From IMG/VR virus record IMGVR_UViG_3300033984_000473, positions 27,393 through 91,392 of that record: 64,000 bases of DNA; one strand, 5' to 3'. The stretch comes from a virus. Below, in pieces: positions 13,995 through 62,894 of this stretch (positions are counted from its first letter, which is position 1; every line of letters starts with the position of its first letter). The notes under the pieces were generated by a model, which was given only the letters and a program-made list of their open reading frames with translations, did no database searches and had not been told where the DNA came from. The position numbers and the translations under genes are program-made.

Positions 13995-16274
13995 CTAATT
14001 GCTTAAAGGTGCCTTGATTGTAGCGTGCGATTGATAATCCTCTAATTGAAAATCTTCTACCTGTACATCTCTGTATGACTTATCACTTTCATGACCACAA
14101 TTTTTAGCCCAAAATTCGGTGTTAATTCTTACGCTTGGCAAAGGAAAAGGCTCTCTTGTTCTTGTCGGTATTTCCCTAGTTTTTAATTTAGCATCCATCC
14201 AGTGGTCATCGTTTGCTACCATTCCAGGTGCGTACTCATCATAATACATTTTAATCCTTTCTTCTCTGTTGTATTCTACCCCAATTTGTTCTTTAGCAGC
14301 ATCCAAATGGTTTGAATACAAATGAACATCACCCAAGTTCCCAATCAATTGGTCTGGAATCATATTGGCTTCTTCGGCTAATATCATCAACAACAATCCA
14401 TAAGAGGCAATGTTGAATGGTAACCCTAAGAATGTATCTACACTTCGTTGATTCCACATTAAAGAGATTGCTCTTCGAGGTATGTTTTCAATATCCAGAT
14501 ATTCGTGTTTATGTGTAATTGCAAAAATAAGGTGAGATACTTTTAGTCCATCAGATTCACGTTTCTTAATTACTAGGTAGTTCTGTCTTTCTTCCAAACT
14601 CAACTCTCTTGTATAAACTTGAAATCCATAATGACAATTATGGTTAACCAAATTAAAAACATTATAAGTATGGTTATTTTCTGTTGAAATATTATATACA
14701 TATCCATTATAATTAGTTTTTTCAATATCTTTAACAAGTAACCATAAATAATCATTATCAAAAATATAATTTTTTGATTTATTTTTTTGTTGGTAAACAT
14801 TTATTGAATAAGTATTTTTTTGATTAACTTCACGACCTTCTATAATTTTTTTATTAGGTCTTTTTTGATAATATACTGACGCTTTTATATTTAATTTAGC
14901 GTATAATAATTGTAATCCGTAGGCTATATTATCAGATACCGTAGTATAACTAATACCATCTTTAGTAATACAACCATCAGCCCTTTGATAACCTTTAATA
15001 AATTCTTCGATTAAATGCTTAGGTCCGTTATGTATAAATTGTGGTATCATTTTACCATCTGCGTATTTTCCAAACTCAGTTAATATTTTAAATAATTGCT
15101 GCTTTCTTCCAACATATTTTTTACAATTTACTCCAGAATTATTTAATCTAGCAAGACCAATAATATTTGTTAATCTAGGTAATACTTCTTCTATTTGGTT
15201 GTCATTAATAGTAAAATAAATTTCTTTTTTAGAATTAATTAACCAACCATCACCTAAAAAATAACCCATTAAATACCAATAATCTTTATCATCTAATTTT
15301 GTAGATATTAATTTTTCAGAATATTGGTTATCTTCGATAATAGTCTCAAATGTTGGTATAATCTCTTCTTTATTTATAGGCATACCTATATAGTCATTCT
15401 TAGTTATTTCATCGGCATTTATATAACCTTTATCTTTCACTAAAAATGGGTGATTTGGTGTTACACCAATAAATTTAGAGTTTCCATAAACCCTTATATG
15501 TAATAAATCATTATTATATTTTGTTTCATGTAATTCATAAACCTTTTGGTAAGACCCATCTTCTGTTAATACTAAATCATTAATGGTTATTTCAGATATT
15601 TTTCGATACCCATCAATACACGCAACTAACATATCTGAACTAAAACAAGGTGGAAGAACCATTTGGTCCAGCTCTCCAACATTCCAAGCATTAACCATTA
15701 ATCGTCTTGAGTCTGGATTTGTTTTAAGGTCGTTGATTAGATTTTGGATTTGGTCTATTTGACCTTCCAATACATATTGACTAACAGGTATCTTTCCCTC
15801 TTCTTTTATTCTTTTCAAAACTCGTTTACCACCACAGCTTCTCCATTGTTTACCATAAATAGGGCCTAATTCACCCCACTTCTTAGCAAACTCATCATCT
15901 GTTTTGATTCTTCTAATAAATTCATCATTATCTGCAACTCTTTCTGTTCCATCATCTAACCGAATACCAGCAACATTGCCTTTATTAAATTCGTTACAAT
16001 ACTTCTTATAAGCATCACCATCCCAAATATGACAATTAGCATCAACCAACGGTTTAATATTTGTTTCCCCTCGTAAGAACCATAATAGTTCTGTTACGAT
16101 TGTTTTCCATGGCATCTTCTTCGTAGTAAGTAAAGGAAAACCATCTTTCATATCGTGACGTATTTGTCTTCCAAATACGCTAATGGTCCCAGTCCCAGTA
16201 CGGTCTTTCTTTTCTACTCCATTATCTAAGATATCATGAAGTAAGTCTGTATATTGTTTGTCTAATTTATTCAT
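13995..16274 (-). CDS. thyA: Thymidylate synthase with in-frame intein
   Basis: Converts dUMP to dTMP using methylene-tetrahydrofolate. The exteins (residues 1-209 and 547-759) form a 422-residue ThyA-type enzyme. The intein (210-546) begins CFSSDML and ends VNHN, and the next residue, Cys547, is the catalytic cysteine of the LPPCHxxFQ motif. It is therefore both splice nucleophile (+1) and enzyme nucleophile, and no activity is possible before splicing. Exteins also show RTGTGT near the N-terminus, DSRRL (phosphate binding) and GNLGDVHLY. Its start overlaps the upstream gene by 8 nt. Confidence 0.93.
14637..15647 (-). mobile_element. Intein with LAGLIDADG homing endonuclease in thyA
   Basis: Intein of 337 residues. 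Splicing blocks: Cys1 with block A, block B VTPNHPF (271-277 of the precursor), block [11 protein letters not shown] and block G ending His-Asn. The two dodecapeptides [10 protein letters not shown] (335-344) and [10 protein letters not shown] (425-434) mark a LAGLIDADG endonuclease with Asp residues in place, so it may still be mobile. The intein DNA is visibly more AT-rich than the extein DNA. Confidence 0.9.
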
Positions 16275-60812: not shown

Positions 60813-61631
60813 TTATACCAATTCCAATTCCTTGGTAGGAACGCTATCATAAATAGCGTTAACCTTATCAAAAATAGCTTGGCTATCTTTGGCTGTTTCA
60901 ATTACAAAACCACTTGTAAAAGCAATTTTATTATCAGCACCTTTGCCTGTCATTTTTTTGTATTTTAAACCACAAATAACATTCTGTTTATCCAAAAATC
61001 GTAGGTCGTCATTATCAGCATTGATAACCTCAAAACCGTTATAAGTAGTAGGTAATTTGTCAAATACCATTGCTACATTAAAACCACGTTTCAATAATTC
61101 TAATGATTTAATATCATTCGTTTCAGAACGTGAAAAAGTCAAATGATAATTACTAGGTAACACTTTGTCAAAACGAAAATGATTTTTTGTATAATCATAA
61201 AATTGTACATTCGGGTACATTTCAAAAATGTTTTTAGTATTATTGTCAAATACTTTGTATTTTTCAAATGGCAAATCACTTGTACCATTTAAACGTATAG
61301 TAACAATAGCTTTGTCAGTATGTTTTTTTACCGCTTTGCCAATTTCCACATATAATTGGTTCATAAATTCAATACGACTACTTAAAAAGTATTCAGTTTT
61401 GGCAACCCTACCTTGCATAACATTACTATACATACCGCCAAAACCACTACCAACAAGGCAACTATCAGCACAACCTTTACTTGCATGGCTACATACATTG
61501 ATACCTTTGCTATTGGCTGTAAAAGGCGACATATACATTATATAGGTCATATAACCTAATTTTTCTCCTTTTACTGTTTTCGCATTATTAGTACTTAATA
61601 ATGGTTTTCTTTTTACTACTTCTACATTCAT
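60813..61631 (-). CDS. GP88-like protein
   Basis: A 272-residue protein. The Cys pattern CSHASKGCADSCL near residue 47, followed by RVAKTEYFLSSRIEFM, fits the Gene product 88 family named after a mycobacteriophage gene. Later LTFSRSETNDIKSLELLKRGFNVA and the C-terminal CGLKYKKMTGKG fit too. The four Cys may bind metal. Role unknown. Confidence 0.8.
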   Translation of the reverse strand: MNVEVVKRKPLLSTNNAKTVKGEKLGYMTYIMYMSPFTANSKGINVCSHASKGCADSCLVGSGFGGMYSNVMQGRVAKTEYFLSSRIEFMNQLYVEIGKAVKKHTDKAIVTIRLNGTSDLPFEKYKVFDNNTKNIFEMYPNVQFYDYTKNHFRFDKVLPSNYHLTFSRSETNDIKSLELLKRGFNVAMVFDKLPTTYNGFEVINADNDDLRFLDKQNVICGLKYKKMTGKGADNKIAFTSGFVIETAKDSQAIFDKVNAIYDSVPTKELELV

Positions 61632-61659
61632 AACTAATTTGTTTTAATTGATTAGAGTG

Positions 61660-61690
61660 CAAATATACAACTATTATTTTAATATACAAG
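61660..61690 (-). promoter_or_regulatory. Host-type promoter
   Basis: CTTG 61687-61690, 19 nt, TATATTTG 61660-61667. For 60813. Confidence 0.7.
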
Positions 61691-61782
61691 TTTTTTTGTA
61701 ATTATTTTTAATATTTTTTTTATGTGTAAAATAATTCACTTTTTATTTGGTAGTGTCATTTATTATCACTACATTTGTACTG

Positions 61783-61870
61783 TTGAAATGAAACACCCAA
61801 AGCAAGATACCACAAATCTGAGAAGTAGACTCCGTCCTACCTTATATCCAAGTTATTTAGAACGAATATA
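61783..61870 (+). ncRNA. Two-hairpin small RNA, copy 9
   Basis: Promoter TTTG 61747-61750, 20 nt, TACATTTG 61771-61778. Hairpin 1 GTT/AAC, hairpin 2 AGAT/ATCT, invariant AAGTAGACTCC. The most diverged copy. No clear terminator. Confidence 0.6.
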
Positions 61871-61883
61871 AATAAGAAAATAA

Positions 61884-61915
61884 TTTGGTAGATTCAAAAA
61901 TTTTTTGTACCTTTG
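61884..61915 (+). promoter_or_regulatory. Orphan host-type promoter
   Basis: TTTG 61884-61887, 20 nt, TACCTTTG 61908-61915. No ORF follows. Confidence 0.75.
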
Positions 61916-61947
61916 TGGTTATAATCTATACGAACCAAAAAAGTTTG

Positions 61948-61979
61948 CAAAGATACAACAAAAATAATTAATATGCAAA
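61948..61979 (-). promoter_or_regulatory. Orphan host-type promoter
   Basis: TTTG 61976-61979, 20 nt, TATCTTTG 61948-61955. Its transcript would be antisense to small RNA 9. Confidence 0.7.
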
Positions 61980-61988
61980 TTTATTTTA

Positions 61989-62020
61989 CTTGTTTTTTAA
62001 AAAAGTTTATCGTACCTTTG
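61989..62020 (+). promoter_or_regulatory. Orphan host-type promoter
   Basis: CTTG 61989-61992, 20 nt, TACCTTTG 62013-62020. Points toward the parS pair. Confidence 0.65.
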
Positions 62021-62110
62021 TACTTCATTCTGCACATTACACATAGTAGTAGTGCCTAGACAAAAACTGCCCAAGTTCATTGTAACTCTGGGCTAAACTT
62101 GTTGCACCTA

Positions 62111-62126
62111 TGTTCCACGTGGAACA
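62111..62126. promoter_or_regulatory. parS-like site 1
   Basis: TGTTCCACGTGGAACA, a perfect 16-bp palindrome of the bacterial parS type (ParB-binding centromere site). Confidence 0.8.
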
Positions 62127-62148
62127 CTGGGGCGATGACCTATGCAAT

Positions 62149-62164
62149 TGTTCCACGTGGAACA
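62149..62164. promoter_or_regulatory. parS-like site 2
   Basis: Identical 16-mer, 38 bp centre to centre from site 1. No parA or parB gene in the window. Confidence 0.8.
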
Positions 62165-62464
62165 TTCAAAAAAATTTTGGCTGAAAAATTTGTGAGAACG
62201 AACGGACAGTATAAAGTTTTTTAAAGATTACCTAGATTTTTTTTATTAACCCTAACACCCAATAATCCCAATGAAATAAGCACTTCCCATTTTTCGGCTA
62301 TGAAAACTCGTACTTTTACCACATTATACCATTATTTACCACTTTTTGCTAAAAACTGCAAAAAAGTACATACGTGCTAATGAAGGTACATTTAGGAACA
62401 TCATAAATACATATATCTGTGTATTAGGTAGATACGTTTTGCCCTAACGGGCAAGTCGATTCCA

Positions 62465-62480
62465 CGTACACAATTGTGTA
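62465..62480. repeat. GTACACAATTGTGTAC palindrome
   Basis: Perfect 16-bp palindrome. Related copies at about 39230-39243, 49342-49356 and 62872-62888. Possible operator. Confidence 0.55.
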
Positions 62481-62597
62481 CATAGGACAGTATTATTGCA
62501 TCTCAATTTGTGGGAATGCGATATGTACTACTATGTGTTGTTCATAGAGTTTATGGAGTATCCTAGTTTTTCTTTCTTAAGAAATGCTATGCTTTTG

Positions 62598-62846
62598 TTA
62601 TGCTTTTCCATTAGGGTTTTCTCCCAGTTCATTTTCTGTATATGAACTTCCTTTACGAAATGTTATTGTGGTAGAAGCTTCGTATGCCATATCTTTGCCA
62701 CCTCTTAAATGTCTAAGAGAATCTTCAAGTTCTGGTATTTCATTCTTGATTACTTCTGCTACGTTTCTTAGTTCGTATGTAGTTCCTAGTATTGGACTAT
62801 ATGACATAACTAATATTGGATAGATATTTATTTCTGTTCCTTTCAT
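62598..62846 (-). CDS. Hypothetical protein (82 aa)
   Basis: Mixed small protein starting MKGTEINIYP. Upstream lies a TACACAATTGTGT palindrome (62872-62888) instead of the usual promoter, so control may differ from the rest of the block. Unknown. Confidence 0.6.
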   Translation of the reverse strand: MKGTEINIYPILVMSYSPILGTTYELRNVAEVIKNEIPELEDSLRHLRGGKDMAYEASTTITFRKGSSYTENELGENPNGKA

Positions 62847-62894
62847 GTGTTTGTTGTTTTATGTTGTTGTATGTACACAATTGTGTGCATTGGG

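Follow-up and report, generated by a model that had tools for sequence, protein, structure and literature searches.

The parS pair and the region around it

Between a Gp88-family gene of unknown function on the minus strand (PF17338, phrog_1617; 60813-61631) and a small conserved unknown gene, also on the minus strand (62598-62846), lies a stretch from 61632 to 62597 that holds no open reading frame of 60 aa or more except one starting at its right edge. The window, by which we mean the whole 64,000-nt sequence analysed here, corresponds to G000:C1:27393-91392, where G000 is the virus record of 232,931 bp. Within the noncoding stretch are two predicted sites of parS, the tag through which dividing bacteria distribute their chromosomes. 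Both are the perfect 16-bp dyad TGTTCCACGTGGAACA, with no strand assigned, at 62111-62126 (site 1) and 62149-62164 (site 2), with a start-to-start distance of 38 bp. No further TGTTCCACGTGGAACA-like match was found in the window when up to three mismatches were allowed, and the pair represents the sole consensus TGTTNCACGTGNAACA sites in the whole record. Markov models of orders 1 to 5 predict about 1e-5 copies of TGTTCCACGTGGAACA per window, and about 0.001 consensus sites would be expected per record, versus the two observed. The original prediction had described two perfect parS-like 16-mers within 54 bp, in a gene-free region with three orphan promoters, as a double occurrence very unlikely to arise by chance, and it holds in each of these respects.

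The three promoters are TAnnTTTG elements on the plus strand that can be read directly from the sequence. The first, at 61770-61777, is TACATTTG, which we take to be a Bacteroidota-type -7 element by the known consensus; the second (61908-61915) and the third (62013-62020) are both TACCTTTG, and the third lies about 90 bp upstream of site 1. Between the first and second promoters is a plus-strand repeat element, GAAGTAGACTCCGTCCTACC (61815-61851), that also occurs in the related records G091 and G081, where it precedes parS. Nine GAGTAGACTCC elements are scattered over 38814-61851, seven of them in plus-strand orientation; several follow closely after orphan promoters, and the set resembles a family of repeated small RNAs or leaders. 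Site 2 lies just upstream of the AAATTTTGGCTGAAAAA box; the box at 62172-62188 (plus strand, AAATTTYGGCTGAAAAA) adjoins a parS-like dyad in G091, G191 and G192 and is kept in the dyad-less G001. Farther downstream are iteron-like direct repeats, TTTACCAC (62314-62342, plus strand), which relatives have retained downstream of the site and which are a possible replication origin element. The palindrome GTACACAATTGTGTAC at 62466-62481 (no strand) has counterparts in G001 and L507, a near copy at 62873-62888 and a further member at G000:117751, and these palindromes are possibly the operator of a phage regulator. Cumulative skew over the whole record tracks mainly gene strand, with a local sign change near 62.4 kb that is reversed by about 63.7 kb. 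Taken together, the orphan promoters, TTTACCAC repeats and conserved dyads give this noncoding hub the look of an origin or control region, so that parS would, tentatively, adjoin the phage origin as it does in bacteria.

The phage, its host and the search for partition genes

The window encodes a myovirus-type portal and large terminase, and the record as a whole carries more than 40 tRNA calls, a sigma factor, DNA ligase, RNA ligase and NAD-salvage enzymes, which is the gene set of a virulent phage. A search of G000 for a tyrosine integrase (PF00589), the hallmark sought for an integrating temperate phage, gave no match in this record, which is classed as "linear" and may be incomplete. The thymidylate synthase gene at 13995-16274 has a ribonucleotide-reductase-like segment, perhaps an intein, between its two halves. 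When the last 24 kb were compared with phage records at the nucleotide level, no match was returned.

TAnnTTTG is the form taken by Bacteroidota promoters. Some 25-35 elements of this form (TACAAATATA-type, minus strand) precede minus-strand genes in the interval from 39 to 62 kb. By portal, the closest isolates are Flavobacterium phage immuto, Microcystis phage Mel-JY01 and LR756508, none of which has a parS site. Judged only from promoter type and from the Flavobacterium phage among these isolates, the host probably belongs to Bacteroidota. About 25-35 diverged copies of TTAATTGATTAGAGTACAAATATA were also noted at 39266-61722, apparently a promoter ahead of many minus-strand early genes.

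In six-frame profile searches of G000, neither ParB_N (PF02195) nor HTH_ParB (PF17762) nor the ParA-type ATPase AAA_31 (PF13614) was matched, where the positive controls for these profiles gave matches in 9 to 14 of 14 reference genomes. The suggestion that the phage has no visible par genes, which called for a genome-wide parA/parB search, is thus upheld for these three families. ParB_N was likewise without a match in five relatives: G081 (368 kb), G001 (362 kb), G091, G191 and G192. Of a self-contained ParABS cassette as found in phage-plasmids, then, G000 shows neither the ParB nor the ParA component. Since the parS pair is present and the tested partition proteins are absent, the phage probably borrows the ParB of its host.

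Conservation among phage relatives

In viral contigs, 313 relatives of the portal were found, the best 80 of which are about 72-83% identical to it. Among 45 portal-relative records (2.8 Mb), consensus parS was found in two, G081 and G091, with three sites in all vs about 0.013 expected. Each has one parS in a noncoding region homologous to that of the window, with a GTAGACTCC element and orphan promoters upstream, and G081 has its second site elsewhere (L453). Two other contigs, L041 and L043, were considered as relatives and rejected, as they share GTAGACTCC and parS by chance.

Searching with the flanking box AAATTTYGGCTGAAAAA and the TTTACCAC repeats revealed further homologous regions. 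The region of G191 is near-identical to that of G091, and its site reads TGTTCCACGTGAAACA. Relatives whose portals are only about 75% identical retain a form of the site at the homologous place. It is a perfect parS in G081 and G091/G191, varying at the N position as parS allows, the symmetric variant TGCTCCACGTGGAGCA in G192 and a two-mismatch version, TGTTCTACGTGGAACG, in L507/L536. In L528 the outer arms alone remain (TGTTCCGTTTAGAACA), the site having probably been lost, and the homologous region of G001 has lost the dyad altogether. The site is thus not essential in every relative, since G001 lacks it and L507/L536 and L528 have only degenerate forms. In an alignment of the seven lineages, the dyads share one block of columns that immediately precedes the box, where site 2 of the window is the counterpart of the single site of the relatives and site 1 is extra.

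The Gp88-family gene (PF17338) was also seen near parS in four other viral contigs (L081, L145, L159 and L051). With 4 of 235 parS loci having such a gene nearby (window excluded), these are too few to claim an association.

Comparison with bacterial chromosomes

In many Bacteroidota chromosomes TGTTCCACGTGGAACA forms a close pair or triplet, as a rule immediately ahead of mnmG; in 17 of the 22 Bacteroidota loci listed, the pair or triplet lies beside a gene with the MnmG motif GGGHAG, and mostly directly before it. Close TGTTCCACGTGGAACA pairs occur at no fewer than 116 loci in genome contigs of many phyla; of the 116 listed, about 30 have a ParB-like gene no more than a few kb away. Eleven Bacteroidota genomes, chosen for holding a pair, have 2-5 sites each, every one of them TGTTCCACGTGGAACA and almost all grouped in a single tight cluster. 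In 80 Bacteroidia genomes drawn evenly from the class, TGYTNCACGTGNARCA was matched in 51, mostly with 1-3 sites each, vs 2 of 80 for the reversed control, and the T/A variant was likewise common in this draw. One Bacteroidia genome (G145) has twelve sites, many in a tandem array with a period of about 99 bp, vs the 1-3 usual in the class. The spacing of chromosomal pairs peaks at 38-39 bp among the pairs listed, and that of the phage pair is 38 bp.

In the comparison with host parS that the original prediction had called for, here made with candidate Bacteroidota hosts, the phage pair thus has the same variant, the same clustering and a spacing within the chromosomal mode. The identification of the 16-mer with the chromosomal parS consensus is borne out by the exact consensus, the Bacteroidota variant and spacing and the position kept in relatives; the phage sites show the TGTTNCACGTGNAACA consensus, clustering in intergenic DNA and conserved position of chromosomal-type parS. 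As judged from sequence, the two 16-mers are very probably true parS, and the pair is best explained as a copy, carried by the phage, of the parS array of Bacteroidota chromosomes. The likeness to the Bacteroidota type of chromosomal ParABS extends to the 16-mer itself, the grouping in twos and threes and the spacing; the setting differs, in that the chromosomal sites sit beside mnmG, whereas the phage pair adjoins a Gp88 gene rather than oriC, in a record without ParA/ParB.

parS without ParB in other viruses

Close parS pairs were present in at least 119 viral contigs vs none for a control pattern of the same form, a single permutation. Among 50 tested records with such pairs, ParB_N (E <= 0.001) was found in only 6, leaving 44 without. 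Sites also occur in isolated phages, with three in Roseobacter phage DSS3P8 and four in Bacillus phage vB_BcoS-136; phages LpeD, Iacchus and Voltaire are further isolates with parS. In a group of 42 marine phage contigs (L155, L165, L202 and 39 others), a short stretch separates the large terminase gene from a parS pair upstream of it, whose sites are 23-25 bp apart; no ParB was found in the eight records of this group that were tested. Isolated phages of Ruegeria, Lactobacillus, Bacillus and Glutamicibacter were seen to have 2-4 TGTTTCACGTGAAACA sites (KT870145.1, MH809529.1, MF787246.1, MH884508.1, OV696617.1).

Discussion

The interpretation that we favour, and hold to be somewhat probable, is that the phage-borne parS would recruit host ParB and ParA in order to position, separate or compact genome copies. 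During infection, host ParB would load at the pair as CTP-bound clamps and spread over the neighbouring phage DNA, thereby connecting phage genomes with the ParA and nucleoid system of the host. Copies of a large genome could in this manner be positioned, kept apart or compacted through a long infection, and might possibly be handed to daughter cells in a carrier state. Given that no tyrosine integrase was found and that the gene set is virulent, stable inheritance is not an obvious need. Two Bacteroidetes gut species were without a detectable condensin homologue in one study (PMC10197239), and SMC loading may for that reason be less relevant. Recruitment of host ParB, as suggested in the original prediction, is the most economical reading, and partition or positioning, ParB titration and local gene control are roles that sequence by itself would not tell apart.

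Of the alternatives, titration is the least unlikely, though still improbable. Host ParB would bind the sites, and replicating phage DNA would strip it from the chromosome, stalling host segregation or division. The small number of sites per Bacteroidia chromosome, mostly 1-3, fits with such a role, as does the fact that each phage genome brings two; a decoy, however, should carry many copies, and most relatives have one or none, and a site held at one fixed place within a conserved control region points to a local role. Alternatively, the dyad could be the operator of some other DNA-binding protein (a phage regulator or a host transcription factor), or ParB could act there only as a local repressor of the neighbouring promoters. 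The distance of about 90 bp from an orphan promoter to the site downstream of it agrees with an operator, and so does the symmetric change to TGCTCCACGTGGAGCA in G192, which preserves the dyad yet departs from the strict consensus; moreover, ParB and KorB are reported to be able to silence nearby promoters (PMC5521831, PMC11790492). We nevertheless regard this reading as rather improbable, because the sites in G000 are confined to one place, unlike the operators of a regulon, the asymmetric site in G091 fits the tolerance of parS at N, and both variant and spacing copy those of chromosomal pairs.

A role in RNA, where the two palindrome copies would pair as a 17-bp stem in a transcript from the third orphan promoter, seems very improbable. 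The predicted fold is indeed far more stable than those of shuffled sequences (z -4.9), but such a fold is trivially expected from two identical palindromes. The long stem needs both copies and the relatives have one, so the stem between copies is impossible there and is not conserved as that of a structured RNA would be; furthermore, the G091 site has a broken internal pair, and there is no Rfam match in 58-64 kb. Chance, an assembly chimera or a neutral remnant of host DNA might be entertained for a record that is metagenomic and linear, but can hardly be credited when only 0.001 sites are expected per record, both flanks are homologous to phage relatives and parS recurs at the same place in independent contigs.

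Several known systems come close to the one described here. The parABS systems of plasmid-like phages (P1 and the mycobacteriophages RedRock and Miko) are alike in having a phage-borne centromere, and in the RedRock-type phages the centromere lies next to a noncoding-RNA origin and the ParABS proteins are the phage's own (PMC7157519); P1, RedRock and Miko, however, encode their own ParA and ParB and have unrelated parS repeats, whereas in the phage described here neither protein was found and the site is of the host type. The Staphylococcus phage Lacachita group has a ParB gene without ParA, and partial use of the host partition system has been proposed (PMC10286716), whereas our phage has the site without either protein. 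Silencing by KorB at its operators in plasmid RK2 (PMC11790492) is comparable as a ParB-fold clamp acting from a dyad on a mobile element, but KorB is plasmid-encoded there, whereas here the host would have to supply any clamp. Phage proteins are included in a survey of the ParB fold published recently (PMC12704722). Thus phages with their own ParABS are already known, and for a host-type parS in a phage without ParB, a host centromere on its own, we found no report in the open literature.

If ParB does bind these sites, lytic phages would be exploiting chromosome segregation as a resource of the host, and the match of parS variant and spacing to particular bacterial groups would provide a host-range signal. 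It is even conceivable, though we put this forward with less than even confidence, that many virulent phages, this jumbo family included, have centromeres of the host type but no partition genes, and that they hijack host ParB/ParA so that their genomes are positioned, spaced or condensed as they replicate. Should that be true, host ParB would be a general phage host factor.
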